The notes beneath the pieces are model-generated. The model was not told where the DNA came from. It was given only the letters and a program-made list of their open reading frames with translations, and did no database searches. A program made the position numbers and the translations under genes. From NCBI RefSeq assembly GCF_015354505.1, contig NZ_JACAFP010000003.1, positions 48,200 to 112,199 of the forward strand: 64,000 nucleotides of DNA, given 5' to 3'. The number at the start of each line of letters is the position of its first letter. The first letter of the stretch is position 1. Of the stretch, positions 32,441-52,017 are shown piece by piece. This DNA comes from Microbacterium sp. UFMG61 (GTDB lineage Bacteria; Actinomycetota; Actinomycetes; Actinomycetales; Microbacteriaceae).

Positions 32441-35236
32441 CTAGAAGTACTCAGGAAATCGCGGATCTGCAATCGCCACATCCTCAGCTGTGTACCCGAG
32501 GAGGCCTGCGAGCACAGAGTTCGCGACCCCGCCGCCTGTTCGAGTGACAGCTGAGGCATTCTCGATGCCCGCCGCAGCGAGTTCCTCGGCGGTCGCAAAC
32601 ATCGGCGGTGGCTCCTGGTTTTCCGGGAGCACACGCACACAAACCTGAGCTCGCCCATCGCGGATCCAAAAGGTCGACGCGCCCCATGGGTACCAGCGAT
32701 CGCTGGACGGTTTCCCCGAATTCAAGAGCACGAGCAATGAGTCGTCCCGATCTCCGAGGCTTTGCTCGAGCAGCCCACCGCGGACTAGCTCGTCCTCAAG
32801 ATTACGAGCCGTTGTCATTTCGTTCTGAATTCGTTCGGCTAACTCTTTCTCGTCCAGAGGTATCGGAACGCGTGGGAGATCCTTATTGAACTGGCGTCCC
32901 TGCTTGATCAGGTCATCGATCGTCTCGACAACGGCCTCGTCGAGTTGAGTTACATCTAGGTGGGCTGTCCACCCAGCTAGTCGCTCCTCGGCCGAGATCA
33001 GACCCTGCGCACGCAAGCGCAACTCGATGAGCGGGTCCTCGAACAGCGGGACTTCCGATGCGACCGTGGCAACTACCGTGCGTGCGACGTGAGAGGTGGA
33101 TATCTCGAAGACGACCGCTTCCATTCGCTCTCCACGAATGTCGACAATGAAACGTCGTCGTCGTTCGATTCCGAGTGCCGCCGCTTCATAGTCGCTCATG
33201 GATGACGCCAACCGGTCGGCGGAGACAGCACGTTCGTACAAGAGATCCGCGAACTCGGCCTGGCTCCGGATCATGACGGTTCGACGCTGGCGTTGACGAT
33301 CCATGATGAGATTCTCAAGGCGAGCGTAGGGGACTCGCGACGCGGGCAGATCTTCGATCCGTTCTACCTGGATGTGATTTCGTGCAGAGGAGGACCGAAT
33401 CCCCTCCAGGAGCGACGAACGGGCGGCGGTTCGCTCCGTAGCGTCATCAAAGTGCGCGACGACGGAGACAGGCTGATCATCGATTACGAGTACGATTCCT
33501 AGCCCGACCTTAGATTGGCTCCGCTGCGAATCCTCGTTCTTGGCGACAGAGTCTCGGAAAGTCGAAGCCAGCTCGGACAGCGTCGATCTCTGCAGAAATA
33601 CCACTGCGCTGTCGAACCGCCCGAGGATTGGCTTGATGAAAGCCTCGAACGATCTCAAAGCGCGCCCCGGGACAAGCTCCAATCCGAATCGATGCTGGAT
33701 CTCACCGATCAGCGTGGCGTAAGCGAAACCGCGCGGGATGACCGGTGCGGCAACCGAGACGTATGCATTCGAAGCAAGCTCGATCATGCCGCTGGCCCTC
33801 AACGCCTCAAGGTCGGCGATCGGGTCTCCGGTGTAAGAAAACCTGATTGCGGCGTGTGCCGCAATCTCGCGAGTGTGCGCAGCCGGATTTTGATCGGGTT
33901 CAATGAGTTCAATCATCGACGCGAGGAGGGCCAATTCATTGGTTTCCGTATTCAGAACACGGGAAACATCTGGATCTAGGTCTTCAGTACCGGCTGCGGC
34001 GAGGACCGCGGGTGTGCTCAGGGCGAGCCAAGACTCGACGCCCGACTGTTCGCGCAGACGTTCTTGGAGTGAGTCGAGCACCGTGATCGCAACGGCCTGC
34101 CGTTGTTTCGCGGTGAGGCGACTATTCCACAGATAGGCCCGGCGTCGGTCATGAAACCAGGCGACGCCGTCGGGGCGTCGGATGAAGACGCCCTCGTCGA
34201 CAAGCTTCTGCTCGAAGACCGTTAGCTCCAGACTTGAGAGGCCAAGGAGCCCGGCGAGGTAGTCGTCAGGAGGCGGATCGCTGAATGCTGCGATCTGAAT
34301 GATTCGCGACTGGAGGCCTGCGCCTACCCGGCGAAACGATTGTTCAAAGACAGACTGGAAGCTCCTCGGCGTTTCGATTGACGAGAGCGAGATGCCTGCC
34401 TTCACCAACCGGATCGCATCCTGAACGAACAGCGGGTATCCGTCCGAAATGCGGATCACCTGCGACCATTGGTTTCTCATGACGTTTTCGGCGATGAGCC
34501 ACGCTTCAACATCTTCACGAGGCAGCGGGCCGAGCTCGTGAGGTTCCGCGTTTCGTCCTTCGAGTAGTCGCTGAAGCTCCTGCCCTTCGGGGTGTTGATC
34601 ATTCGCAGTGACCACCATGCGGACGTTGCCACCGAGCTCGGTGGCCAACTCCACGAGCAGGTCACGGTCGTCCCGCCCCAGGCGCTCTGCGGCATCCATC
34701 CGAAGAACCAGCGTTCTCTCAGTAGCTACTGCGACATCTTGGACTAGGCGCCCGATTTCCTCAGCTGCATCAGCAATCGCGAACGCGGAGAGTTGGTCCT
34801 CGAGCAACGCGCGCGGAGAGAGCAGTAATTCGTCGACCACGCTACGAATCAGCGACGTAGCGTCTTTGCCAATCTTGGCCTCAATAATTTCGGTGGCCCT
34901 CGAGACGAGCAAACGACCGAGCTCTTTCTTCGCCCCGGTAGCGGCGCGAAGAACAGAGCCCTTCACGCTCTCCCAAACAAGGCGTTGGCGGGTCTCGTCT
35001 TCTGAGCTTTGCAGCAGACAGTCCCCTAGAGCACTTGCGATCGCATTCTGCAAAGAGCCAGCGGTGCTTCGAAGAACTTGCACGTCAGAAACCAGCTCAG
35101 CTTGTGAGGGAACCGCGCTCAAGCTCTCAAGGAAGGTGGACTTTCCGATTCCAGAGTCGCCGCGGACGAGGACAACACCGGTGCAAGACGACACAGCATC
35201 TCGATCCAACTGTCGACCATGTAGCTGCGCGGTCAT
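32441..35236 (-). CDS. large STAND-like P-loop ATPase
   Basis: 931 residues. Walker A is VVLVRGDSGIGKSTFL at ~22-36. A hhhhDA-type Walker B (TLVLRMDAAERLGRDDR) lies near 195, followed by MVVTANDQ (sensor-like) near 225. A helical winged-helix region (IIQIAAFSDPPPDDYLAGLL, then FHDRRRAYLWNSRLTAKQRQ) closes the NTPase part, as in STAND/AAA proteins. The ~480-residue C-terminal half has no domain I recognise; no TPR or WD repeats are obvious. It probably senses a ligand through that part. The gene is alone in a ~3.5 kb insert and overlaps a small upstream frame by 4 bases. Its codon use looks less GC-biased than the neighbours. Antiphage function is inferred only. Confidence 0.8.
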   Translation of the reverse strand: MTAQLHGRQLDRDAVSSCTGVVLVRGDSGIGKSTFLESLSAVPSQAELVSDVQVLRSTAGSLQNAIASALGDCLLQSSEDETRQRLVWESVKGSVLRAATGAKKELGRLLVSRATEIIEAKIGKDATSLIRSVVDELLLSPRALLEDQLSAFAIADAAEEIGRLVQDVAVATERTLVLRMDAAERLGRDDRDLLVELATELGGNVRMVVTANDQHPEGQELQRLLEGRNAEPHELGPLPREDVEAWLIAENVMRNQWSQVIRISDGYPLFVQDAIRLVKAGISLSSIETPRSFQSVFEQSFRRVGAGLQSRIIQIAAFSDPPPDDYLAGLLGLSSLELTVFEQKLVDEGVFIRRPDGVAWFHDRRRAYLWNSRLTAKQRQAVAITVLDSLQERLREQSGVESWLALSTPAVLAAAGTEDLDPDVSRVLNTETNELALLASMIELIEPDQNPAAHTREIAAHAAIRFSYTGDPIADLEALRASGMIELASNAYVSVAAPVIPRGFAYATLIGEIQHRFGLELVPGRALRSFEAFIKPILGRFDSAVVFLQRSTLSELASTFRDSVAKNEDSQRSQSKVGLGIVLVIDDQPVSVVAHFDDATERTAARSSLLEGIRSSSARNHIQVERIEDLPASRVPYARLENLIMDRQRQRRTVMIRSQAEFADLLYERAVSADRLASSMSDYEAAALGIERRRRFIVDIRGERMEAVVFEISTSHVARTVVATVASEVPLFEDPLIELRLRAQGLISAEERLAGWTAHLDVTQLDEAVVETIDDLIKQGRQFNKDLPRVPIPLDEKELAERIQNEMTTARNLEDELVRGGLLEQSLGDRDDSLLVLLNSGKPSSDRWYPWGASTFWIRDGRAQVCVRVLPENQEPPPMFATAEELAAAGIENASAVTRTGGGVANSVLAGLLGYTAEDVAIADPRFPEYF

Positions 35237-36839: not shown

Positions 36840-37195
36840 CCTCGTCCGCACAGTGAGAAAGCCCGCAGGGCCGTCCTCGACGCGCCGCATACCGCACCCG
36901 CCTCCCGCGGATTCGAGTAGCGCAACTGCCTGGAAATCACGAGCCTGATTCCGCAGCAGCTTCGGCTCCCGATACGAAGGTTTGCGAACAAGTATCGTCG
37001 CGAACAGTAGACATTCATGCCAGAAGCAGCCATCGATGAGCACAGCCAGCCGCACCTTGGTGAAGGCGATGTCGGCGCGTTTTCGCGCGACGAGCACGCG
37101 GGCTCGAAGACGACGCGATATCGATAGCCATCCGGATAAAGCCGTCGACATATCCGGAGATCGGGCTTTGTGCTGGCGCGTTTGTTCGACCTCAT
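36840..37195 (-). pseudogene. Vsr-type DNA mismatch endonuclease, decayed
   Basis: The frame starting at 37195 reads MRSNKRASTKPDLRICRRLY, then GYRYRVVFEP, which is the Vsr N-terminus (the SNK/RxxDTKPE pattern with Asp replaced by Ser). The frame then shifts at ~37085, and the next frame carries KRADIAFTKVRLAVLIDGCF, WHEC, then KLLRNQARDFQAVALLESAG, the Vsr core with the catalytic Asp and the FWH motif. A further shift near 36870 loses the C-terminus. Vsr enzymes nick at T:G mismatches from 5-methylcytosine deamination and accompany C5 methyltransferases. It lies directly behind the Z1 gene on the same strand. Confidence 0.8.
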
Positions 37196-37247
37196 TGGAG
37201 GTGAGACACCGTCCTAGGAAGCCCTGAAATCGGCTCGCCGTGCGGAG

Positions 37248-40220
37248 TCAGCTGGCGTCGATGATCGCCTCATTCTCCCGGCCATGATCGAGGACGCGAA
37301 AACCGATCCTTCCACGCGGTGCTGATGCGTACGGCATCGCAAGGGAAAAGAGCGTCGCCACGTCGCCCGGATCGAGAGGCGGAGCAGTCTTCGCGGTGTC
37401 CATAGCGAAGGTAAGAAGCATCGCCCCACGAGTCGGTGTGCTCATGCGTGCGGCCTCGGAGCCGCCCGGGGCCTTCTTGTTCCCCGCAATCCGTTCGATT
37501 GCTGCACGCTGACGGAAGGAGCTGCCCGAGAACCCTCCACGTTCGCGGCGGCTGCGCTTGATGAGCTGAAGCTCATGTCCGTCGATCATCGTCGTTCCGA
37601 CACCCTTGAGCTCGGGAATAAGGACCATCCAGTCGTGAAGCTTGTCGGTGAGGATGGATTGCCGCATAAATTCCAATGTCGGCTCGAACGAGTAGTTTGG
37701 CGTCCATTCGAACTCGCTCAGAGCAGCAATCATCTCCGCGGCGCTGATGAGCGCGGTGCGCCCTTGGAATGTCCTCGTCTTAGGCTCGTCGCCAGCACGG
37801 CTTTCGACATACTCAAACTCGATCAGCTCGCTGAGGTTGGCGAGCCACGGCCGTACTGCTTCGAAATGCTTGGCATTGCGCGTAGAAGTACGCTCTGCCT
37901 GACGCGGGAAATCCTTCAGCTGGCCGCCATCCCCCTCGAAGTCCAGAACAGCGTTGTACATCTTGTTGGCACCGGTGGGTTTGAGCCAGGGAAGCTGCTG
38001 GAACACCAGAGGGGGAACGTCGATCGGCCTGACGAGCGGCCGACCATCCGCATCGGTCCCGGAGAATCGACGCAGTTGATCGCGGAATGCCTCCTCGTCC
38101 TGCACGATCGCAGTGAAAGCCTCGTACAGGTCATAATTCTTGCCGCGGGCGTCGGTGATGTTCCGTGCGATGTACAGTCGGACGAGATCCCGGTAACCCT
38201 TGCGGTAACCGAACCAGCGGCCCATCTGCATGAGCGTGTCGGCGGCCATCGCGCGGCGCCGATAATACGAGATGGTGAGCCCCTCAACTGTGAAGCCGCG
38301 GCTCAGTTTCGCGCCGCCGACCATGACTCGCCAGTAGCGCCCGGAGTTGAAGTCAGCGGCCTTGTACTCGCTGTCCTTGGCGCCGTTGACGATGACGACT
38401 GGGCTGCCCTTCGCGGTGATGAGATTGATCGCATCACCGATGTGCCTGGACTTCAGATCGTCGAACGACGACGGAAGCCCAGCGTCCCACTCACTGCGAC
38501 TCGCATGTACCCGCGCGAAATCGTCTGTGTAGAGTCGACGCAAGCGCGCGAGGCCAGCTGGGCTGCTGTACTCCGCGGATTGCCATACGTCTTCGATCAG
38601 TCCGGCGAGCTCGGTGTGGTCGGCCTGCGCGACCGACGAATGGACGAGCATGGTGTGGTGGCGAAATTCAGTGCCAGGGACAGTCTCGCCTCGCCAAAGC
38701 TTGATCGCACCACTCAGCACAAATGCGTCGAGCGCGTCTCGGATTTCGCTGCGTTCCTCCTCTTCCGTCGTAGCCTTGAGGTTGCGTACGAAGGCCACTT
38801 CATTCGAGTTGGCCGCGGAGGCGATTTCGTCCTCTGGCAGCGGATCCAGATCGTGGAACGCCTTACCGCCCATGTAGGCAGGCGGAGGCTCCAGAGCGAT
38901 GATGAAATCACTCGGGAAGATATCTTGGCTGTCCTCCGGGGAGACGAATACGTTGGCGAACGGTGTTGCGGTGTACCCGATGTACTGGGCGCGAGGCATC
39001 TCTGAGATGATCCGCGAGATCAGTCCGTTGATCGCAGTGCGGTCCTTCTCTTCCTTCGATTTAGATCTCTTTGGATTGGTGGTGTTCACCGAGGCCTGAT
39101 CCGCCTCATCATCAATGATGAGAACCGGAATCTCCTTGAGGGAGGTGTGGACATCGTGAATATCGCGGAGGAGCTTCTCAAGGACCGACTTGTTCTTCTT
39201 CACCACGGCGAGACGAATATCCGTGCTGAAGAGGTTTACCGGGTCGAACAACGGCTTCGTGGGATCCTTCAACTCATTCGAGCTGCGGAAGTCGAGGGTA
39301 TCGAGACCGGCTTTCAGCAGCTTGTAGTCGCCGGACGCTGAAGTCAGGCGCTTGATCGCGGGAATGTCCGGCCGACGGCTGATGTCGACGCCGTGACGGA
39401 GGAACTTGCCGTCCCGCCAATCATCATCGCCGGTTCCGATGTAGTCGACATCGCGGATGGCGTTCGCATCGTGTCGATCGCGCCCTCCGAGGATGTTTTC
39501 TTCCCCGACGAGCTCCTTGTCGATGCGGCGCTGGGTCTGTCCACGGAGCAGCTCGAGGGTCCCCGTCAGGACGATCACAAGACGATAGCCCGCATCCATT
39601 GCCTTTGCGACGATCCCTGTGAAGTTTGCAGTCTTCCCGCTCTGCACGTATCCGACGACGAGGCCCTTCGACTGGTATGACTGCGCGCCAGCGGGGTCAG
39701 CGAGCCTTCCCACGATGTCGTTGGTCGATTCGTCCAGATTCGCGATCGACTCCGGAGCCCAATTGTTCGAGGCGAGGACGCCCCGGTATGCATCCCAGTA
39801 GAAGCGGTGGGCGTCCCGGCGCTCCTGCGTGTACCAGGGTTCCCATGGTCCCGGGTTCTCGATCACGATGTCCTTTTGCGCGATGGTCGGGAACTGCTCG
39901 TTTAGGCTCTTTCCGGCATCTGCGCCGATACCGAGCCGTGTATATACGAGGATCCTGCGCGCTTCGCTCTTTGAGGGGGTGTCGTCGGTCCAATGCGCCT
40001 CGCCGACTGCATCCCATTGCGCGAGGCATGTGTGGGCCGACTTGCGAGCAGGAGCGTTTCCGTCCGCACCGACGATCGCGTCTATGATGGCTGCTTCGTC
40101 GGCGCTTTCATCAACGTCATCGAGCCAGGCGTTCACCTTTGAGAGCAGTTTCGACGGCCCCACGTCCCGCATGCCGTCGAAAACGGCGCGGACCGCCTGT
40201 TGCAGATTCTGATCGGTCAC
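37248..40220 (-). CDS. Z1-domain P-loop ATPase (helicase-like)
   Basis: 990 residues. The P-loop is VVGYVQSGKTANFTGIVAKA near 187-200, the Walker B is VLIIDDEADQAS near 370, a helicase-like motif III is YIGYTATPFANVF near 410, and the Z1 hallmark is GGAKLSRGFTVEGLTISYYR followed by QMGRWFGYRKGYRDLVRLYI near 640-680. Z1 proteins occur with MutL/MORC-like ATPases, C5 methyltransferases and PD-(D/E)XK proteins in restriction-type systems, presumably as DNA translocases. The ATG overlaps the end of the nuclease-like gene by 4 bases; together they form the minus-strand operon of the island. Confidence 0.93.
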   Translation of the reverse strand: MTDQNLQQAVRAVFDGMRDVGPSKLLSKVNAWLDDVDESADEAAIIDAIVGADGNAPARKSAHTCLAQWDAVGEAHWTDDTPSKSEARRILVYTRLGIGADAGKSLNEQFPTIAQKDIVIENPGPWEPWYTQERRDAHRFYWDAYRGVLASNNWAPESIANLDESTNDIVGRLADPAGAQSYQSKGLVVGYVQSGKTANFTGIVAKAMDAGYRLVIVLTGTLELLRGQTQRRIDKELVGEENILGGRDRHDANAIRDVDYIGTGDDDWRDGKFLRHGVDISRRPDIPAIKRLTSASGDYKLLKAGLDTLDFRSSNELKDPTKPLFDPVNLFSTDIRLAVVKKNKSVLEKLLRDIHDVHTSLKEIPVLIIDDEADQASVNTTNPKRSKSKEEKDRTAINGLISRIISEMPRAQYIGYTATPFANVFVSPEDSQDIFPSDFIIALEPPPAYMGGKAFHDLDPLPEDEIASAANSNEVAFVRNLKATTEEEERSEIRDALDAFVLSGAIKLWRGETVPGTEFRHHTMLVHSSVAQADHTELAGLIEDVWQSAEYSSPAGLARLRRLYTDDFARVHASRSEWDAGLPSSFDDLKSRHIGDAINLITAKGSPVVIVNGAKDSEYKAADFNSGRYWRVMVGGAKLSRGFTVEGLTISYYRRRAMAADTLMQMGRWFGYRKGYRDLVRLYIARNITDARGKNYDLYEAFTAIVQDEEAFRDQLRRFSGTDADGRPLVRPIDVPPLVFQQLPWLKPTGANKMYNAVLDFEGDGGQLKDFPRQAERTSTRNAKHFEAVRPWLANLSELIEFEYVESRAGDEPKTRTFQGRTALISAAEMIAALSEFEWTPNYSFEPTLEFMRQSILTDKLHDWMVLIPELKGVGTTMIDGHELQLIKRSRRERGGFSGSSFRQRAAIERIAGNKKAPGGSEAARMSTPTRGAMLLTFAMDTAKTAPPLDPGDVATLFSLAMPYASAPRGRIGFRVLDHGRENEAIIDAS

Positions 40221-41197
40221 TTCGTTTCGTTCCTCTCACAGAGATCGCCCAGAGGGGCGGGGGCCGTTGACCATTTGAGATGGCTCACGTCGATACGGTA
40301 CGACACGCCGCCGACCAGGCTTCTCTGTGGGACGACGGCGTCGAGCATCGTGGATGTGATCGCGGGGAAGTCGTTTTCGACGGCATAGGCCCGAGGAGTA
40401 CTGCGCAGCTCGAATCTGTCCGTGTAGAGGTCGGCGGCGTCATCCGTCCAACCTGCGCTGAGCAGAGCCCGATCGAACGCCCGACGTCCGAGGTCGAGTC
40501 GCGTGCGGATCCGTCCGATCGCGTCGGGGAGCGTGAACGCTGCCGAAGAATCACCAGCGAGCGTGATCTGGATCGAAATGAGGAAGAGTGGACGCTCGAG
40601 ACTTGGCTGCAGCTGAGTCTCGCTCCCAATAACGTGTACTCGTGCTTCTGATCGCGTCGTCTTCACCTCGGCCTCAAAATGTTCGAGGCCGAAATCGTGT
40701 TCCTCGGCCAACGGACCCAACCACGACGTGATCGCGGTGTCCTCGTCGGCGTTGAGCAGGAGATGTTCGAGCACGAGAAGCTCGCCGATGAGCCCGGCTT
40801 CTTTTTCGGCGGTGAGACGACGGCGTCCGCTGAGCAGTTCCCTTAGCCCTTCGAGTGATTCGTTCACAGCCATCTGGAACGAGACCCCGCCATCGAGCTG
40901 ATCGACGATCGACACTATGAGCCCGTAGGCCTCGTAGTGCATATCCCGTGCGTCGATCGTCAGCCGGTACCAGTCGCCGCCGTGCCCGATGATGTTGATG
41001 CGCTCGACACCGATCCGTTCGTACCGAGTCACATCCGGTTCCGCCCCGGTCGCCGGACAGATGAGCCGGAGCTGCTGCCGGTTCGGATCGATTTCCAGGG
41101 TCGCCCCACGCGAAGTCCCGATGGGAAAGGCTACCTCGGCGCCAGCCGCGAAGTAGTCCTCGATCGTGTCTCGAGTCAGCTCGGGATCAGACATCAT
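40217..41197 (-). CDS. PD-(D/E)XK motif protein (DUF4420-like)
   Basis: 326 residues (325 from the second Met). An acidic Glu stands in GLIGELLVLEHLLLNA, then HDFGLEHFEAEVKTTRSEAR near 165-180 gives the E-x-K half of a PD-(D/E)XK nuclease centre, followed by QLQPSLERPLFLISIQITL. This fits the PD-(D/E)XK family coded with Z1 proteins. It is the probable nuclease partner of the Z1 ATPase, with which it shares a 4-base overlap. Its start overlaps the end of the decayed DUF1156 gene by 11 bases, so these once were one operon. Confidence 0.88.
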   Translation of the reverse strand: MMSDPELTRDTIEDYFAAGAEVAFPIGTSRGATLEIDPNRQQLRLICPATGAEPDVTRYERIGVERINIIGHGGDWYRLTIDARDMHYEAYGLIVSIVDQLDGGVSFQMAVNESLEGLRELLSGRRRLTAEKEAGLIGELLVLEHLLLNADEDTAITSWLGPLAEEHDFGLEHFEAEVKTTRSEARVHVIGSETQLQPSLERPLFLISIQITLAGDSSAAFTLPDAIGRIRTRLDLGRRAFDRALLSAGWTDDAADLYTDRFELRSTPRAYAVENDFPAITSTMLDAVVPQRSLVGGVSYRIDVSHLKWSTAPAPLGDLCERNETK

Positions 41198-41502
41198 CGT
41201 CCCTCAGTTCCTTTTCTTGTCGTGCCGTCTCATCGCGCATTGCGGTGGTCAGTAGCTGGTTCCAGGTGTCGATCTCGGCCTTCTCGCGCGCGCCGAACTA
41301 CGAACCCTCGAAGTAAGTCGAGTAGTGCATCAGCAGCAAAAAGCTGCGCGAAGCGCACGGCGGGGGCCGTCGCCAGCAGTCGGCGAGCCCACTAAAGATG
41401 CAGGGCCGACGGATGTACATGCCGAATCGACTTCTCGCGCGCGGACGGCGCATTGATGGCGTCGAGGGGCGGAGCGACCTCGATGAGCTTCTTCTTCGAC
41501 AC
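41187..41502 (-). pseudogene. DUF1156 DNA methylase remnant (N- and C-terminal ends only)
   Basis: The GTG at 41502 begins [20 protein letters not shown] and [16 protein letters not shown], the unmistakable N-terminus of DUF1156-type adenine-specific methylases. It then meets TAG exactly where the family has Trp (TGG to TAG), and continues WARRLLATAPAVRFAQLFAA. About 70 codons in, the frame shifts and a short tail (AREKAEIDTWNQLLTTAMRD) runs to a TGA at 41187, inside the start of the PD-(D/E)XK gene. Family members are ~900 residues, so nearly all of the gene is deleted. The operon once had a second methylase. Confidence 0.75.
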
Positions 41503-41649
41503 GACGCCCCCCTGTAGTGCGGAGGTCGCGGCGCGCGTTCGTTCGCGCACTTCCCCCTGTTGATGTTCCCTTTCTAGCCTATGGCTGAGTCCTTGACTAA
41601 CGGTCGCAGCCTGAACCGAATGTCGTGCCCGTTCAGTACGATCAGCGGC
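41503..41649. promoter_or_regulatory. divergent promoter region of the island
   Basis: About 150 bp separate the minus-strand (methylase remnant, nuclease, Z1) and plus-strand (ATPase-sigma, methyltransferase) operons. TACGAT at 41637-41642, seven bases before the ATG at 41650, could be a -10 box for a leaderless transcript. No clear -35 stands 16-18 bp upstream; TTGACT occurs at 41593 but too far away. This is where the system's own sigma domain could act. Confidence 0.4.
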
Positions 41650-44600
41650 ATGGACGACTTCACCACGGCGGACGGATCAGCACCGGAACGAGTCGTGCTG
41701 CAACCGGACGCGTCCGTGCTCGATGCGGTGGGCCGTGGACACACTCTTACATCCGCACTCGCGGATCTGATCGACAACAGCATCGACGCGGGTGCTGGCT
41801 CGATCTCCATTATGTTCGTCGTGAAGGACTCGAAGATCCGGTCCATCCGCATCGCCGACGACGGCTGCGGGATGACGGCCGGCCAGCTCGCCGATGCCAT
41901 GACCATCGGGCGGCGCAGGGAATACGGGACGACGTCGCTCGGTCATTTCGGAGTCGGTCTGAAGGGTGCGTCGTTCAGCCAGGCAAAAGTCCTTTCCGTG
42001 TATTCAGCGTCTGGCCACACGCCGCCAGCGGGGATGCGGCTGGCGAAGGGGCAGAGCGGGAACGGCATCGTCGCGGACATCATCGATGCTGAGTCTGCGG
42101 CCGGGATACTCCGACGCCGTGGCGTCGGTGCGCCAGGCACACTCGTCGAATGGACGCACCTCGAATCTGTATCCATAGCGACGAACATCCAGGAACGGAG
42201 GCGTTGGATCGAAAGGACTATTCTGCAGGTTCGCGATGAACTCGGACTGACCTTCCATCGCCTGCTGGAGGATGGCCGGGTACGGATCGAACTCGTAGAG
42301 ATGGACGAAGACAGCGGTGAAACTGGTGCCCCTCGCCGAGTCAGGCCGATAGATCCATTTGACTTCGACCGCTGGGGCAGCAACGGTTATCCGCGTCGGC
42401 TGAGTGTGCAGTTGCAGGGCGGAGTCGTGATCCACGCGGATCTTTTCGTCCTGGCCCCAGGAGTCGAGAGCGGTCTTATCGGCAGATCGCGCCGCGAAGC
42501 ACAAGGCTTGTACATCTACCGCCATGGGCGCTTGTTGCAGTCGGGCGGTTGGGGTGGCTTCCGCTTAGACCTCCCTCCGGACCTGCAGTTGGCGAGGATC
42601 GCGATCGACCTGGCGGAGGATGCGCTCGACGCGTTCGTCATAAACCCGGAGAAGCGTGGCGTCATCCTCCGCCCGAGCATCGTGCAGGGGCTGGAGCGAG
42701 CGGTCACCGACGGGGTGACCTTGCGGGCGTTCTGGGATGCGTGCCGTGATGCATGGACGCAGTCGAAGCGCCGAGAGATCAGGGCCAGACCCTTCGCCCA
42801 GCTTGGAGAAGGGGTCCCTTCGGCGCTCAGCGGGATCGTCGAGCAGACCGTAGGAGTGCGCGAGGACGACGACGCTGCCGTGTCGTTCGATTGGAAGCTG
42901 CTGGACCATGAACAGCTGTTCGTCTTCGACCCGCCCACCGGGATCATCTGGTTGAACGAGCGGCATCGAACTCGCCTGGAACAGGACGAGGGGAATCTCT
43001 CACTAATTAAGACGAGTCTGTTCTTCCTGCTGGAACCGCACGCCGGCAAGGAACGGCTTGCGGCGGCTACTGCGGAGCGGCTCGATGCGATGCAGGCCGG
43101 AATGGCTGCGAACGTGATCCCGCAGCGCGAAGCTCAGGAGGGTACGCGCGTGGATCTGCCGATAATCGGCGGCGATCCGGGATTACCGCGAGCGGTGGTC
43201 GAGCGCGCTGATCCGGACGAACCCTTGGCAGACCCGCGGGTAGCTCACGTGTACGTGTCGGGCGAAGCCTTGGACGACTTCATGAGAGGTGTTCGCAAGA
43301 ACGCACTGCTCGAGGCTGAGGAAGAGGTCGCACTTGGTACCGCGATCGAAGCAGGACTCTTCGCACGTGAGCGGCTGCTGCAGCAGCATGGTGGTCGAGT
43401 GTTCGACCAGGCGACCCTCGACCTGGCCTTCGTCGAGCGTGAAGGGAAGCGAGCCCAGGACCGGATGGTGCTATCGAACGTCCGTCTCGTCATATCGATT
43501 GCGCGGAAGTATCAGTACAACGGGCTCGAGCTCGGCGATCTGATCCAAGAGGGGATCCTCGGACTGATCCATGCCGTGAAGAAGTTCGACTATGCGCAAG
43601 GGACGAAGTTCTCCACATACGGCACATGGTGGATCCGTCAAGCGATCACCAGGGCGCTTGCGGATAGAGGACGGATGATCCGGTTTCCGGTTCATATCGT
43701 GGAGAAGTTGCCCGAGATCAAGCAACAGTGGAACGAATCAGAGGGCAGTGCAACCGAGCGTCTGCACGCGGTCGCGGAGCAGCGCGCTGAGTCGGTCGGC
43801 GCGATTCGGGGGATCGTCAACAACCTCTACGAGCCGTTGTCGCTTGACTCGACTATCGCGGTCAAGGTGGACAGCGGTTCGTGGATGCCCATTCCCGTTG
43901 TCGACGTACTCACGGAGAGCGACGCGTTCGGTCCCGAAGAGTGGGCGGAGCGCTTTGACAAGGTACGCCGAGTCAATGATCTGCTGAGCGCATTGAGTGA
44001 CCGCGAACAAGCAGTGATGCGGAAGCGATTCGGAATGGAAGACGGGGTCCCGCAGACACTGGATCAGATCGGTGATGCATTCGGCGTCACCCGGGAGCGG
44101 ATCCGACAGATCGAGAAGAAGGCGATCGAGTCGATGCGTCGTTCTGCGGGGATCCTTCCACAGCAGAGCGAGGCGAGGGGCGCACGAAAGTCCAGAGACA
44201 AGGAGGTCGCTCCTGGGCGCGCTGCCGCGCCGAGAGTAATCAAGGGAGAAGCGGGAGAGGAAGCGCCAGTTCGTTTCGATGCCGCAGCGGAGGCCGCTCC
44301 GGCGGCGGAGCACACCGCGGTCCCTTGGCCGACGATGGTCAGAGTGTTCGGTCTCTATAGCGACGGATGGTCGATTGCGAGCATTGCCGATGCCGTCGAC
44401 ACCGCGGCCGACGACATCGCAGCGGCGCTTGCACGATGCGTGTTTGATCTCGACGAGGGCGACGTGCGGCCGCTGGCGAGTGAACACGCGCGCACGGCAC
44501 TCGGCGAGCCTGAACGAGACCGCATTCATCAACTGCTCACGCAGGGGCTGACGCTGCGTGCAGTCGGCGATGTGACCGACATCCCTCTTCTGCTGATGGC

Positions 44601-44712
44601 ATGGTCGATCCTCGACAGCGACGAGCGACCCCGACTGACGCGCCGCATGCTGAGTGCGATGCGGCCCCAGGAGGATGCGGCACACCTTGCTCGCGCCTCC
44701 GAGCTCAGCTGA
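41650..44712 (+). CDS. MORC/MutL-like GHKL ATPase fused to a complete sigma-70 factor
   Basis: 1020 residues from the ATG at 41650 (1043 from 41581). GHKL ATPase at ~25-190: N-box [21 protein letters not shown]1 [10 protein letters not shown]2 [15 protein letters not shown], as in MORC/MutL. An S5-like and linker region runs to ~520. Sigma-70 at ~534-835: region 1.2 ([20 protein letters not shown]), region 2 with [20 protein letters not shown] and [17 protein letters not shown], region 3.2 (EPLSLDSTI), region 4.2 ([20 protein letters not shown]). The promoter-contact residues of housekeeping sigma (Q and T of region 2.4; R, E, R, Q of 4.2) are kept. A ~180-residue tail with HTH-like helices ends it. 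One uninterrupted frame, so a real fusion. First gene of the plus-strand operon; the methyltransferase follows 24 bp later. Confidence 0.93.
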
Positions 44713-44736: not shown

Positions 44737-45816
44737 GTGAGTACTATCCGCGTCATCGACCTCTTCGCAGGAGCCGGCGGGCTCACCGCAGGTTTCAAGC
44801 AGGCGTCGGCGCGCTTTACGACCGTGCGTGCAGTCGAGTGGGATCAGGCAGCCGCCGCCTCCTATGCTGCGACATTCGGCGAGGGGATCGTCTTCCCGGG
44901 GAGCATCCAGGACTGGTTGGAGAAGGAGGAGGTGCCGTCTGCGGATCTGATCGTGGGCGGACCGCCGTGCCAGGGATTCTCGACGCTCGGCAAACGGGAC
45001 GCGGAGGACGAGCGCAACTCGCTGTGGCGCGAGTACATGGCGACGATCTTGAAGGCGCGACCGAAGTACTTCGTGGTCGAGAACGTCGCGGCATTCGCGA
45101 AGTCTCCGCAATACCGATTGTTCCTGGCGGAGACTCAACCCGGTGGTGAGCTCGAGGACTACACGTTCCAGCACCGGGTTCTGAACGCCGCCGACTACGG
45201 CGCACCACAGGCGCGCAAGCGGACAGTGATCATCGGGCACCTCCGCACTCTGGAGTTCCCAGGCTGGCCGGATCTCACGCACGAAGGAGCGCACAAGAGC
45301 GTCGAAGCGGCCTTTATTGAGGCGCAGATCCCGACGGACGTCGCGGGCATCGACTTCGTCGACGACCGCATGACCGAGTTCGAAGGCAAGCGCTTCGCGG
45401 GGCCGTTCGTGCGTGATGAGCTCCACCTGGGCCGGCGCTACACGCAACTGTCACTCGACCGATTCGCCACCATCGGGCCCGGTGGCAATCGCTTCGACAT
45501 CGCGGAGAAGCGCCCGGATCTGCTTCCGAGATGTTGGGTGCACCACACTTCGGGTTCTGCGGACGTGATGGGACGGTTGCGGTGGAAGGACCCGGCGGTA
45601 ACGATCCGCACCGAGTTCTTCAAGCCGGAGAAGGGGCGCTATCTCCACCCTGCCGCGGACCGTGCGATCACCCACTTCGAGGCGGCCGTTCTCCAGGGGT
45701 TCCCGCCCGAGCATAAGTTCGTGGGGTCGAAGACTGCGATCGCGAAGCAAATCGGCAATGCGGTGCCTATCCCTCTCGGCGAGGCGATCGCTCGAAAGCT
45801 GCTGGAGAGCTTCTGA
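44737..45816 (+). CDS. dcm: DNA (cytosine-5)-methyltransferase
   Basis: 359 residues, GTG start. Motif I is VIDLFAGAGGLTAGF, motif IV is GGPPCQGFSTLGKRD with catalytic Cys78, motif VI is VVENVAAF, motif VIII is QARKRTVIIG, and motif X is AIAKQIGNAVPIPLGEAI. It transfers methyl from AdoMet to C5 of cytosine; the site cannot be read from sequence. The target-recognition region (~190-300) is short, as in phage-like or restriction-type enzymes. It follows the ATPase-sigma gene by 24 bp and is clearly in that operon. The decayed vsr gene 8 kb away would once have repaired its deamination products. Confidence 0.95.
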   Translation: MSTIRVIDLFAGAGGLTAGFKQASARFTTVRAVEWDQAAAASYAATFGEGIVFPGSIQDWLEKEEVPSADLIVGGPPCQGFSTLGKRDAEDERNSLWREYMATILKARPKYFVVENVAAFAKSPQYRLFLAETQPGGELEDYTFQHRVLNAADYGAPQARKRTVIIGHLRTLEFPGWPDLTHEGAHKSVEAAFIEAQIPTDVAGIDFVDDRMTEFEGKRFAGPFVRDELHLGRRYTQLSLDRFATIGPGGNRFDIAEKRPDLLPRCWVHHTSGSADVMGRLRWKDPAVTIRTEFFKPEKGRYLHPAADRAITHFEAAVLQGFPPEHKFVGSKTAIAKQIGNAVPIPLGEAIARKLLESF

Positions 45817-45838
45817 GACCTACCGCTATGTTGTGACC

Positions 45839-46150
45839 ATGGCGGAACGTAACGATCTCAAGGTCTGGGTTGTCGAGGCTCTTCGTCAACTCGGCGGAGC
45901 GGGAACAATTGTTCAGGTGTGCCAGCGCGTCTGGCAGATGCATGAGTCAGAATTGCGAGCCTCAGGAGATCTGTTCTTCACGTGGCAGTACGACATCCGG
46001 TGGGCGGCGCAGTACCTGCGCAACGTGGGCGTGCTCGTTGCCGTCGACAACAGCAGGACGAAGGACTGGTCGCTCAGCAGTGTCGGGAGGGCGATCGAGC
46101 TCGACGAAATATTCGCACCTTCTTCCCGAGCTGGCTCGAAGCGGCGATGA
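45839..46150 (+). CDS. winged-helix (Mrr_N-like) small protein
   Basis: 103 residues. MAERNDLKVWVVEALRQLGG, then GTIVQVCQRVWQMHESEL, FTWQYDIRWAAQYLRNVGVL and DWSLSSVGRAIELD follow the Mrr_N winged-helix pattern: a helix pair, a W-x-Y/R-WA-YLR recognition helix, a wing and a final helix. It probably binds DNA or modified DNA but carries no nuclease domain. It starts 22 bp after the methyltransferase stop and precedes a second protein of the same length, so the two may work as a pair. Confidence 0.75.
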   Translation: MAERNDLKVWVVEALRQLGGAGTIVQVCQRVWQMHESELRASGDLFFTWQYDIRWAAQYLRNVGVLVAVDNSRTKDWSLSSVGRAIELDEIFAPSSRAGSKRR

Positions 46151-46154
46151 CTCT

Positions 46155-46466
46155 ATGGCGATTCCGCATGACAAGGAGATACAGGAAGCGCTTCTCCATC
46201 ACCTCGCGAGATCGAACGATCACAGGTCGCACGCCCAGGAATGTTATGAGGCTTTGGCTCTCCTATTCCCAGAACTGACGATTGAGGAGAAGAAGGATCG
46301 ATACAGATCGAGCATCAGCAAGTGGGCGAACAGAGTGCAGTTTGCTCGCCTCCATCTCGTCAATGGAGGCTACTTGTTCCGTGCTGGCGACGGGCCGTCA
46401 CCAACTCGGGGGGTATGGATCCTGACGAGTGCTGGAGCGGAACGAGCAGGGCTCACTGCAGATTGA
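46155..46466 (+). CDS. second winged-helix (Mrr_N-like) small protein
   Basis: 103 residues. PHDKEIQEALLHHLARSNDH, then ECYEALALLFPELTIEEKKD, then SSISKWANRVQFARLHLVNG, GYLFRA and RGVWILTSAGAERAGL. The W-x-NRV-x-FAR-x-HL helix and the RGVW-LT-G wing are typical of the Mrr N-terminal domain. No nuclease part. The start is 4 bp after the previous stop, so translation is probably coupled. Same fold and length as the preceding protein, but little identity. Confidence 0.75.
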   Translation: MAIPHDKEIQEALLHHLARSNDHRSHAQECYEALALLFPELTIEEKKDRYRSSISKWANRVQFARLHLVNGGYLFRAGDGPSPTRGVWILTSAGAERAGLTAD

Positions 46467-46529: not shown

Positions 46530-46667
46530 GTGTTCCTTCTCGATGACATTCTCGTGGCGAGCGCCAGCGATCTGACCCTCCCTTCGAACTGTGTCTTCGT
46601 GTCCCTGCGGAAGCCCGATGTGCTGCGGCGCCGGGCGGAGAAGATCGAGGCGGAGCACGATGCGTGA
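46530..46667 (+). CDS. 45-residue small protein of the island
   Basis: A GTG at 46530 stands behind a very strong ribosome site (AAAGGAG, 5-base spacing). The peptide starts MFLLDDILVASASDLTLPSN and ends RRRAEKIEAEHDA. Its stop overlaps the start of the 411-residue gene by 8 bases, so the two are coupled. No family recognised. It could be an adaptor or an inhibitor for its partner. Confidence 0.6.
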   Translation: MFLLDDILVASASDLTLPSNCVFVSLRKPDVLRRRAEKIEAEHDA

Positions 46668-47895
46668 AATCGGAGCCTTGAGCCACGAGTCGCAGCGTTT
46701 GGCCTGGGAGCTTGCAGCGGCTCAGGTCAGGATGCGTCCATGGCTGACAATCAGCTGGATCGCACGACCGAAAGAAGGCTGGCATCTTGTGGTGCACGAC
46801 GGTGCGACCGGCCCGGCCCTGCATTTTGACGACGAGGCAGGCCCGACCTTTGCCGGAAAGGCGGGCGTGCTCTCACTCGACTGGGACGATTTCGCCCAGA
46901 CGGGTGACGCCTTCGGCTGGGCGGATGAGTGGGGCCCTGGTGCCCTACATTCAGAGACGACGCCGAAGATCGCCGTTTATGAGTTGCTGAGTGCATTCGT
47001 CACACGTGGCCCGGCGTGGTCGGTCCGGCCAGCGCGTTTTATCAAAAGTGACGAATCGCTCTCGGTATATACCCTTCTAGAAGCGTTTCCAACGGTCGAT
47101 TCCGCGGTGGATTCGTACCTTGGCATGCTCGAAGTCCAGTTCCGCGAGGGGGAGCTGGCGGATCATATCGAGCACTGGCACGAACCACTGTGGCTTGTCG
47201 AAAAGGCAGGTGTTCCAGTCGCGCTGCTTGATGAATCCGGCCAACTGCACGTCTCGTCCACGGCGAACACCGAGCCGTCAGTGGTCGAGGTCCTACATGC
47301 CCTTTCCGAGCACGAACGAGAGGTCGCTCGACTTGCGGATGTGATCGCTGCAGCCCTCGGGAACGGCGATGCTTCCACGGGAGGGTCTGCCTCCGATTCC
47401 GCAGAATCTCCACACCGGACGGGCTGGCGGAAACTGCGTGTCTACATCGACTTCGGCTCGATCATGGCGCAGTCCGACTGGGGTGCGATTCGGCGCGCAC
47501 GCGAGAGCGGCTTGCGGATCGAGGACACCAAGGTTCTGCGGGAGGTAGGTCGAGCGTTCGCCGACGCCTTCGGGCAGGAGTGGTGGTCTATAGGGCTTCC
47601 GGGTGCCATCGCTGGCGGTGTCGAGTGGACCTTATGCCTGGGCGACATTGACATTGGTGGGTCACGTGCGGATCTCCTTTACCTAGCGGGGTCTGATTCC
47701 TTCACGGGATACTTCTTCACTGGCGGTCGGTTGCTGATAGATCGACTGGGTGCTATGGACTGCGACATCTTCGTCACTCGTGGCATGGCCGCGCGTGACG
47801 AGGACGGCACTTCCGAGGTGATACAAGTCGGTTCGCGAGCTTTCGAGGACTGGCATGCCGTTGCGAGCCATATCCGGGAGTGCGTTCGTCGGTGA
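46660..47895 (+). CDS. unknown 411-residue protein at the end of the island operon
   Basis: The ATG at 46660 is inside the end of the 45-residue gene. The protein is soluble, Trp-rich and acidic. Visible segments are WLTISWIARPKEGWHLVVHD, LSLDWDDFAQTGDAFGWADE, a Ser/Gly-rich hinge near 250 (GNGDASTGGSASDSAESPHR), and a C-terminal domain with YIDFGSIMAQSDWGAIRRAR and FADAFGQEWWSIGLPGAIAG. I cannot assign a domain. Being last in the operon that begins with the ATPase-sigma protein, it is probably part of the same system. Confidence 0.7.
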   Translation: MREIGALSHESQRLAWELAAAQVRMRPWLTISWIARPKEGWHLVVHDGATGPALHFDDEAGPTFAGKAGVLSLDWDDFAQTGDAFGWADEWGPGALHSETTPKIAVYELLSAFVTRGPAWSVRPARFIKSDESLSVYTLLEAFPTVDSAVDSYLGMLEVQFREGELADHIEHWHEPLWLVEKAGVPVALLDESGQLHVSSTANTEPSVVEVLHALSEHEREVARLADVIAAALGNGDASTGGSASDSAESPHRTGWRKLRVYIDFGSIMAQSDWGAIRRARESGLRIEDTKVLREVGRAFADAFGQEWWSIGLPGAIAGGVEWTLCLGDIDIGGSRADLLYLAGSDSFTGYFFTGGRLLIDRLGAMDCDIFVTRGMAARDEDGTSEVIQVGSRAFEDWHAVASHIRECVRR

Positions 47896-50784: not shown

Positions 50785-52017
50785 TCAGGCCGTCGAAATG
50801 GAAGTGGTGTCAAGGAGATTCGCGACAACCAACCGCCGCCCGAGCTCCCCGATCCGCTGCACGAGTTCGTCCGGCGACCCACTCACGTCCACCGAGTGGG
50901 CGACGACCGTCGTCCCGGTCGCCGAGATGCGATACCGCCGCGGCTCGACATCACCAGACACATACAACAGATGCACTTCCGGAACGCCCGCTGTCACTGC
51001 GTACGCCAGCGCCTGGTAGACATCCGCGTTGGGCGGGGAGCCATCACTCTCACCCCAGACCTTGTACTTCGTGTCGGCGACGGTCACCACATCCCCGTTG
51101 CGGGAGATCACGATGTCGGGCCTCATCCCCACCTGGCCATCGGCATCCAACCGCCAGTCCGACACCTGCAGATCGACATCGAAGCCCTTAGGTTTCAGCG
51201 CCGACCGAAGCACGGAACCCACGAAGTCCTCGTACACCTTCGCGACATTCAGCAGGAACGTCGATCCACCGCGTGCGCCTTCTGCATGAGCCCACGATGA
51301 CGCATCGATGATCCACTTCGATAGGCGCAGAGCCGGCTGGTAGTGGGCATTCAGTCGTGTCTGCCGCGGCAAGACGATCGGCCCGTCGGCGCGCAGGTCA
51401 GACACCTCGGAGAACAACGACAGAAGCGGCCCGAGTTCACGGACGATTCCTCGGGGAAGCTGCTCGAGTCTCGTGAGCGCACGCACCGCGGCTTTCACGA
51501 TCCGGTTCTCGAGCACGTCTTCGGTGTAGTCGTCGTATGTGAGCTCCACCGGACTGGGGATGCCGGGGCGAGCCTTGAGCTGCCGAGCGATGTCCCACCG
51601 ACCACGGATCACGGTTCCGGTCTCCTCGACCGGCACGTACCCCTTGAGGAGTCCCCGACTCGTGGCGTTCTTGACGGCCCCGAGCAAAGCAGCCGCAAGA
51701 GCGGCCGGTAGATCGTCCTCGCTCTCGAACTCGAAGGAGCCTTCGCGCACGGCGGCCTGCACGCCCGCATGAGAGGCCATGAAGATCAGGCTCCGCAGCG
51801 GCGTCTTGGGACGCACCATGAGCCGGACGTCGTCGATTCCCACCACTCCGACGCGTGTGACGTCGGTGACCCGCCAGACACCGGAGGTTGAGGTCGGCGA
51901 GACCCGGCAGAACTTCAGGCTCTGGAGTTCTGCCGCCTGAGCAGACGTCAACGCGACGAAGGTCTCGCCCTTCTCTGCGATCTCCTCGACCCGTACGGCA
52001 TCCATCGAGGGGCTCAT
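50785..52017 (-). CDS. mcrC: McrC, nuclease subunit of the McrBC restriction system
   Basis: 410 residues. The N-terminal part resembles McrC (LQSLKFCRVSPTSTSGVWRV, LMVRPKTPLRSLIFM). The catalytic PD-(D/E)XK core is near 290-320: MRPDIVISRNGDVVTVADTK, then YKVW, i.e. D...DTKYK. McrC cuts DNA when McrB translocates between two modified-cytosine sites. Its start overlaps the McrB stop by 4 bases. Length is slightly above E. coli McrC (~350). Confidence 0.9.
   Translation of the reverse strand: MSPSMDAVRVEEIAEKGETFVALTSAQAAELQSLKFCRVSPTSTSGVWRVTDVTRVGVVGIDDVRLMVRPKTPLRSLIFMASHAGVQAAVREGSFEFESEDDLPAALAAALLGAVKNATSRGLLKGYVPVEETGTVIRGRWDIARQLKARPGIPSPVELTYDDYTEDVLENRIVKAAVRALTRLEQLPRGIVRELGPLLSLFSEVSDLRADGPIVLPRQTRLNAHYQPALRLSKWIIDASSWAHAEGARGGSTFLLNVAKVYEDFVGSVLRSALKPKGFDVDLQVSDWRLDADGQVGMRPDIVISRNGDVVTVADTKYKVWGESDGSPPNADVYQALAYAVTAGVPEVHLLYVSGDVEPRRYRISATGTTVVAHSVDVSGSPDELVQRIGELGRRLVVANLLDTTSISTA

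Follow-up and report, generated by a model that had tools for sequence, protein, structure and literature searches.

Why does a MORC-type ATPase of a methylation-linked island carry most of a housekeeping sigma factor in the same chain? This question is raised by one gene in a 64,000-nucleotide stretch of DNA from Microbacterium sp. UFMG61 (contig NZ_JACAFP010000003.1, positions 48,200 to 112,199 of the forward strand), the whole of which is called the window here and is numbered from its first letter. Our tentative answer, to which we give a little less than an even chance, is that one ATPase-helicase-nuclease core captured the host's housekeeping sigma at least twice to work through host RNA polymerase, either by docking an ATPase clamp at promoters of incoming DNA (restriction coupled to transcription start) or by offering a decoy sigma that senses polymerase takeover by a phage. 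The gene and its parts are as follows.

41650 to 44712, plus strand: fused gene of 1020 amino acids (aa), in the order MORC-type GHKL and S5 ATPase, middle domain, sigma-70 part, helix-turn-helix (HTH)-like tail
41695 to 42774, plus strand: GHKL and S5 ATPase module, aa 16-375 (from motifs, invariant columns and structure match)
43270 to 43365, plus strand: sigma-70 region 1.2, aa 541-572 (Pfam)
43468 to 43674, plus strand: sigma-70 region 2, aa 607-675 (Pfam)
43981 to 44139, plus strand: sigma-70 region 4, aa 778-830 (Pfam)
44326 to 44706, plus strand: C-terminal tail, aa 893-1019, also present in sigma-less relatives and interpreted as two HTH units

The frame is open without interruption from 41581 through 44712 on the plus strand; 41650 was adopted as the start, and residues of the fused protein are counted from there. 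A first reading made from the letters alone (the sequence-only reading) had described an unbroken 3-kb frame with GHKL boxes, sigma regions and an HTH-like tail, and the open reading frame, the Pfam matches and a structure model agree with that description. Pfam found HATPase_c_3 at aa 32-121 (E 6.5e-21), Sigma70_r1_2 at aa 541-572 (E 8.8e-5), Sigma70_r2 at aa 607-675 (E 2.9e-19) and Sigma70_r4 at aa 778-830 (E 3.3e-15), regions 1.2, 2 and 4 being among those expected of a primary (group 1) sigma-70 factor. A Pfam match to Sigma70_r3 was absent from the window's fused protein at E values up to 1; in other copies of the fusion, described below, this domain is over the cut-off (genome G187) or matches below it (G091). 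The ATPase module holds the N box DNS, the G1 box DDGCGM, the G2 box GHFGVGLK and the S5 lysine in NPEK, that is, the GHKL motifs and the basic S5 residue by which a prokaryotic MORC protein is recognised, and the MORC signature GhXhhpXXRhl was found by eye in its S5 domain. Residues N43, D70, G72, G74, G98, G101, G103, K105, G163, T164 and K335 are invariant in nine of nine aligned ATPases. The N box has Asp39 as its acidic residue, in place of the Glu of MutL.

An AlphaFold2 model of the fused protein, built from a 15-row alignment, reached a mean predicted local distance difference test score (pLDDT) of 71.5 and a predicted template modelling score (pTM) of 0.43. In it the GHKL and S5 module (aa 16-375) is followed by a middle part of alpha/beta type, a linker of low confidence (aa 493-537), the sigma part and a tail of helices. 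The solved structures closest to aa 16-375 are the ATPase modules of SMCHD1 and MORC2/3/4 (Z 17.8-22.5). The sigma part matched mycobacterial SigA in Foldseek (E 3.1e-16, with a root-mean-square deviation, rmsd, of about 21), and aa 538-837 matched mycobacterial SigB (Z 16.7, rmsd 18); since the rmsd of such matches is large (18-22), the relative placing of the sigma regions is poorly modelled. Sigma region 2 has a pLDDT of about 60-70. When folded alone, the tail gave two three-helix groups followed by one long helix (mean pLDDT 76.7), which we would read as a double HTH; a Foldseek search with the tail returned nothing at E <= 0.001.

The same order, GHKL before sigma in a single open frame, was found in seven further genomes (G793, G187, G091, G592, G780, G707 and G1458), which makes eight distinct genomes with the window's, all of them Microbacteriaceae. 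G187 matches a Planctomonas deserti record and G780 a Microbacterium dauci record, both stretches coming from the best 80 of at least 551 confirmed stretches in a record search; G780 probably belongs to the window's own genus, Microbacterium. With the window's genome counted each time, the number of genomes with a fused gene was 3 out of 299 in a sample of the family, 2 out of 396 in one of the order, 4 out of 345 in one of the genus and 5 out of 398 in another sample of the family; these four samples overlap. The sequence-only reading had named homologues without the sigma part, or a break in the frame, as findings that would speak against a real fusion, and the outcome favours the fusion, with the same order in one frame in eight genomes. 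An assembly or frame artefact was rejected on the same ground and has a negligible probability: as seven genomes besides the window's carry the fusion, it is neither a chance product nor a misassembly. The tail is missing in two of the eight fused copies (G780 and G707). Five relatives have the ATPase and the tail without sigma (G267, G133, G803, Glaciibacter flavus and Kocuria coralli), and in three of these (G267, G803 and Glaciibacter flavus) the neighbours are those of the fused genes, namely the methyltransferase and the divergent DUF4420-Z1 genes. Among 28 loci on viral contigs there was no sigma match in a GHKL-matching frame, two weak sigma matches being in short frames; the 10 phage records listed of 230 match the sigma part only, and none among 25 plasmid records listed of 516 covers 80% of the fused protein.

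How much of a working sigma factor has been preserved? RpoD-invariant columns were defined as those with at least 95% invariance across 25 RpoD rows, and a column was counted as kept when it was so in all six distinct fused copies compared, the G1458 fusion not being among them. Region 2.3-2.4 is the best kept part (20 of 28 columns, mean 0.90). The counts are 12 of 23 for region 4.2, 5 of 13 for 4.1, 8 of 17 for 1.2 and 1 of 2 for the 1.2-2.1 linker, and 5 of 12, 2 of 12 and 0 of 14 (mean 0.21) for regions 3.0, 3.2 and 3.1, respectively. The Trp pair, the region 2.2 motif DLxQEG and RERxRQIE are present in all six copies. The sequence-only reading had called this a full sigma-70 factor, which is right for regions 1.2, 2 and 4 and too generous for region 3.1, eroded in the six copies. 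Its further claim, that the residues contacting the -10 and -35 elements are kept, applies to much of region 2.3-2.4 and is too broad for some positions near the -10 loop, where aa 650 departs from RpoD in five of six copies; beside it in the alignment, aa 652, which is outside the columns listed in the count, is T or N in five of six and aligns with F in the genome's own RpoD (L001, the one read as RpoD among 18 sigma region-2 matches in that genome, the fused gene included).

Between the window and G793, regions 2 and 4 (compared over aa 600-680 and aa 771-835, 146 codons) show 12 synonymous and 0 nonsynonymous differences, and the ratio of nonsynonymous to synonymous rates (dN/dS) is 0.08 for the whole sigma part and 0.16 for the ATPase, from small counts in this one genome pair. 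The linker at aa 836-892 has 7 nonsynonymous differences and 1 synonymous. These codon differences indicate that regions 2 and 4 are under selection. The absence of nonsynonymous changes there, the region 2.2 motif in six of six copies and the grouping of the fused ATPases into one clade (see below) all speak against a sigma part unconnected with polymerase, whether as an extra DNA-binding module or as a passenger that is tolerated. The relatives with only the HTH-like tail, and the two fused copies in which the tail is missing, would suit such an explanation, which we regard as improbable.

The source of the sigma part was sought in trees that include a known sigma partner of such an ATPase. 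NCBIfam models an anti-phage system, MZA, with a sigma-70 protein (MzaA), an ATPase (MzaB), a Z1 protein (MzaC), a PD-(D/E)XK protein (MzaD) and an AIPR protein (MzaE, the label mzaE coming from one record); its original description is said to be that of Gao et al. 2020. In Neorhizobium and Thalassospira, the ATPase gene is directly preceded by that of MzaA, which combines ankyrin and sigma parts. The sequence-only reading knew of no description of an ATPase of this kind carrying a sigma factor; as a claim of no precedent this was too strong in view of the MzaA and MzaB models and of two loci in which sigma and ATPase are encoded by separate genes; because this partner is already named in public models, the association itself is not new. 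The sigma tree was made from rows cut to regions 2-4, with Rhizobium and Paenibacillus RpoD and three MzaA rows added, the RpoD rows being the best sigma matches of their genomes. The eight fused rows form one clade (support 98/92) that groups with the RpoD rows of the family (100/99); MzaA groups with Rhizobium RpoD (97/92). This grouping of MzaA sigma with alphaproteobacterial primary sigma, and of the fused sigma with the family's primary sigma, is new here. The groups in this tree were chosen after a first tree had been seen, and it leaves out a long Speluncibacter row that had joined G091 in the first; L148, L151 and a partial Thalassospira MzaA were dropped from the alignment, the Thalassospira MzaA having been restored by hand in the first tree. 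Joint descent of the fused sigma and MzaA was rejected by the approximately unbiased (AU) test (p-AU 0.0011, with long branches present). The housekeeping sigma seems to have been captured twice by one ATPase-helicase-nuclease core. In each lineage the captured sigma apparently derives from that lineage's own primary sigma, as would be expected if it had to be compatible with the host polymerase or its promoters.

A tree of the ATPases (52 rows, quick method, the G1458 fusion absent) places the fused rows in one clade (support in the Shimodaira-Hasegawa-like approximate likelihood ratio test, SH-aLRT, 93, not starred), nested in a clade of tail-bearing ATPases (99, starred). The other rows are plain ATPases, mostly of about 500 aa. 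Row L133_17158, scored as a lone ATPase, is the truncated end of the fused gene in G592; with it the tree has two changes of sigma state, and without it the fused rows are one clade. The likely order of events is that the tail came first, that the primary sigma of the host lineage was inserted once, between ATPase and HTH-like tail, and that the tail was then lost in one pair.

A protein family with polymerase-related matches in some of its members recurs beside other ATPase genes of this type.

L083:13444-15576; L056:5885-7954; L062 and L068:5915-7960; L071:6026-7999: upstream-protein family, about 660-710 aa, beside MzaB/Z1-type genes

In L056, L062 and L068 (Rhodococcus or Rhodococcoides) and in L071 (Gordonia), the gene upstream of the ATPase gene, and overlapping it, encodes a protein of 658-690 aa. 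A Kribbella relative of this protein (L083, downstream of Z1) matches both alpha-CTD and sigma region 4 over the cut-off. In G242 and G074 the operon begins with a protein matching region 4 and an HNH repeat, over the cut-off. A primary sigma is a usual target of phage anti-sigma and polymerase-takeover proteins, and the sigma part might be a bait that mimics the housekeeping sigma, is bound by such proteins and thereby triggers the ATPase and the nuclease. The apparent double capture of a primary sigma from the host's own lineage, the long branches of the fused copies and the related protein with region 4 and alpha-CTD matches would all suit a bait. However, the DNA-reading region 2.3-2.4 is the best kept, beyond what a bait for region-4 binders would need, and no phage trigger is known; we consider a bait unlikely.

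The genes around the fusion bear on what it might act with.

44737 to 45816, plus strand: C5-cytosine DNA methyltransferase, the next gene, 24 nt past the fused gene
40217 to 41197, minus strand: MzaD-like DUF4420 PD-(D/E)XK nuclease, divergent from the fused gene
37248 to 40220, minus strand: MzaC-like Z1-domain protein of helicase type, with DDEAD and the motif DTLMQMGRWFG
36903 to 37222, minus strand: Vsr endonuclease remnant, split over two frames with an in-frame stop; broken
41341 to 41502, minus strand: DUF1156 remnant, 54 aa from the start of the gene, 81% identity to M. dauci, with a stop
41193 to 41339, minus strand: remnant of a second MzaB-like GHKL gene, 49 aa from its end, 67% identity to M. 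dauci, with a stop

The Z1 and DUF4420 genes are present in all eight fused loci (in G780 the Z1 gene runs off the end of the stretch), and in all eight the fused gene is followed, as the next gene on its strand, by that of the C5-methyltransferase. The island type proposed from the letters (Z1, Vsr and C5-methyltransferase) is borne out apart from the Vsr, which is broken in the window; full-length vsr frames are present in G793, G187, G091, G592 and G803. In G780, G707, G592 and G1458 the fused gene lies beside a DUF1156-DUF499-second-ATPase-DUF4420-Z1 set (with a further GHKL gene between in G592), and the window's divergent region is, as its two remnants indicate, the scar of a lost DUF1156-DUF499-second-ATPase block. 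In G793 the second ATPase survives in pieces (71% over 52 aa and 40% over 70 aa) and DUF1156 in only 15 aa (E 0.39), with a breakpoint other than the window's. Between the window and G793 (L141), protein identity is 94.7% for the fused gene and 97.5% for the methyltransferase, whereas Z1 and DUF4420 reach 53% only; the two halves of the island therefore seem to be exchanged separately, by cassette exchange at the divergent region.

Directly past the methyltransferase, at 45827-46463, two short frames overlap, each matching Mrr_N (one over and one below the cut-off), and a TY-Chap2 domain occurs in 46591-47895. A 931-aa protein adjoining the island at 32441-35236 has NACHT/AAA-like P-loop matches below the cut-off, and a McrC-like protein at 50785-52017 (NCBIfam PRK09736, below the cut-off) is possibly another defence gene. 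A further GHKL protein recurs beside such islands (L030:11821-13464, with a Hypoth_Ymh C-terminal domain; L142:3896-5536; L133:16714-19326). No tRNAs were found in the window.

Could the sigma part direct transcription of the island? The fused protein might be an ATP-gated switch, in which the ATPase senses infection or the state of DNA and frees or orients the sigma part, which would then bring polymerase to island promoters (those of the divergent nuclease-helicase operon and of its own operon). Much of what promoter opening needs is kept and selected in the sigma part, and the fused gene is divergent from a neighbour in eight of eight loci, this neighbour being a further GHKL gene in G091 and G592. 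A short element, CCTTTCTATC, lies upstream of some fused genes, with a variant in the window.

41569 to 41578, plus strand: CCTTTCTAGC, variant of the short element CCTTTCTATC

The divergent regions of G187 and M. dauci have an exact 14-mer in common (reached in 4 of 300 Markov simulations), and the best match to the element in sigma-less loci has 3-4 mismatches in five of five, both of which would favour a switch. Against it, the element is weak, being found with one mismatch in four of six groups, as was reached in 18 of 150 simulations, and we treat it as only a lead. A first scan for sigma-70-type promoters in the divergent regions found 0, and a second found them in 2 and 1 of 8 loci, not above chance (simulated means 1.5 and 1.3). 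A primary-type sigma would probably add little promoter specificity of its own, and the sigma-less relatives do without one. A transcription output of the fused protein is possible; the switch as set out here seems rather doubtful.

We give first place, provisionally and knowing that it may well be wrong, to a docking role: the sigma part would dock the ATPase clamp on host polymerase or promoters and so couple surveillance to transcription start. It is ranked narrowly before the switch, with the bait third, because the sigma seems to have been captured twice, the -10 reader is the best kept part, the fusion is in cis and sigma-less relatives exist. That a lineage's own primary sigma was apparently captured on two occasions points to compatibility with the host polymerase or RpoD-type promoters as the important property, and the cis fusion to the clamp, together with the sigma-less relatives that have the same neighbours (three of five), favours an added targeting part over a separate regulator. 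Docking is also favoured by the selection on regions 2 and 4, by the C5-methyltransferase gene after the fusion in eight of eight loci and by the four other loci in which a relative of the Kribbella protein is encoded upstream of the ATPase. The fused protein would be the MORC-type, MzaB-like ATPase subunit of a methylation-linked defence system. Its sigma part might bind core RNA polymerase, -10/-35 promoter DNA or both, and might deliver the ATP-driven clamp to DNA at transcription start, with docking and not gene expression as the output; these are the most speculative steps. The target would be DNA that lacks the island's C5-methyl mark, such as incoming phage or plasmid DNA being read by host polymerase, and a clamp closed on unmarked DNA would recruit the Z1 helicase and the DUF4420 nuclease. 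Clamp closing driven by ATP, the roles of helicase and nuclease and self-marking by the methyltransferase are proposed from what is known of these families.

Several observations weigh against docking and against the captures from which it is argued. The core-binding regions 2.1-2.2 keep 15 of 28 RpoD-invariant columns, less than the -10 reader, and the RpoD-invariant Asn at aa 636 is changed in five of six fused copies. Between the window and G793, dN/dS is 0.42 in region 1.2 (4 nonsynonymous vs 3 synonymous) and 0.41 in the tail (6 vs 5). The fused rows were not one clade in the first sigma tree, which had one more long row (a single clade was not rejected, p-AU 0.466), and both sigma trees have long branches. 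In the upstream-protein family of six, alpha-CTD is over the cut-off in one member, and region 4 is over it in one, weak in three and missing in two (L071 and a cut relative in L122). As sigma-less relatives exist, docking is not essential to the system. If the sigma part does work through polymerase, transcription start would join the things that a restriction-type defence can read. The single-chain fusion makes core-polymerase binding, promoter binding and ATPase control addressable on one protein, for which the sigma-less relatives are natural controls.

In its gene content and motifs the island fits the third prokaryotic MORC operon type and resembles MZA. The third type, as set out in the relevant part of its description, combines the MORC signature GhXhhpXXRhl, a helicase with the motif DThhQXuRhFG, a restriction-fold nuclease, a C5-methyltransferase and Vsr (Iyer, Abhiman, Aravind 2008, PMC2292703). 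The window has the same signature, a neighbouring helicase (the DTLMQMGRWFG of the Z1 protein, found by eye) and a restriction-fold nuclease (DUF4420). The word 'sigma' is absent from the main text of that paper, whereas the window's MORC-type protein holds a sigma factor.

MZA has in common with the window an MzaB-like ATPase with a primary-type sigma, a Z1 protein and a DUF4420 nuclease, and the two plasmid loci, which we class as MZA from their genes and from the mzaE label of one record, both have a C5-methyltransferase nearby and in one case vsr. NCBIfam and PADLOC match parts of the window to MzaB, MzaC and MzaD, well below the NCBIfam cut-offs: 109.7 bits for the fused protein against MzaB (aa 28-335; cut-off 850), 287.3 for the Z1 protein against MzaC (cut-off 1500) and 91.9 for the DUF4420 protein against MzaD (cut-off 420). 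The MzaA model gives 251.6 bits over the sigma part only, the cut-off of 800 including its N-terminal part. The plasmid loci themselves both miss the MzaA cut-off and one misses that of MzaB (Neorhizobium, 717.5 bits). The best MzaA-model match in the window's genome (1.8e-103) is better than the fused protein and so is most likely RpoD; 7 of 14 control genomes match as well. A match to this model was rejected as proof of MZA membership, with 255 of 396 genomes matching at E <= 1e-100 and 0 over the cut-off. MZA differs in its separate ankyrin-sigma gene upstream of the ATPase, the window's sigma being fused C-terminal to the ATPase, and in its AIPR protein MzaE (PF10592), with 0 matches in the window's genome and matches in 1 of 14 control genomes. 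Neither a description of a GHKL-sigma fusion nor an account of the role of the MzaA sigma in MZA-type defence was found among the top matches listed by full-text searches of a literature from which subscription papers are mostly absent.

Two further systems compare with the fusion in part. The BREX-related DUF1156/DUF499 systems, in the sections of PMC12839542 that describe them, correspond to the DUF1156-DUF499 genes beside the fusion in M. dauci, G707, G592 and G1458 and to the DUF1156 remnant in the window, from which the DUF1156/DUF499 genes are gone. A sigma-like HTH (SIGMA-HTH) is reported in BrxL, whereas the window's protein has a nearly full sigma-70. VcSduA, a Shedu protein with an N-terminal GHKL domain, is like the fusion in that its ATPase is joined to an output domain and is proposed to control it, as presented in the portion of PMC12137116 concerned with it; there the output is a nuclease, and here it is a sigma factor.

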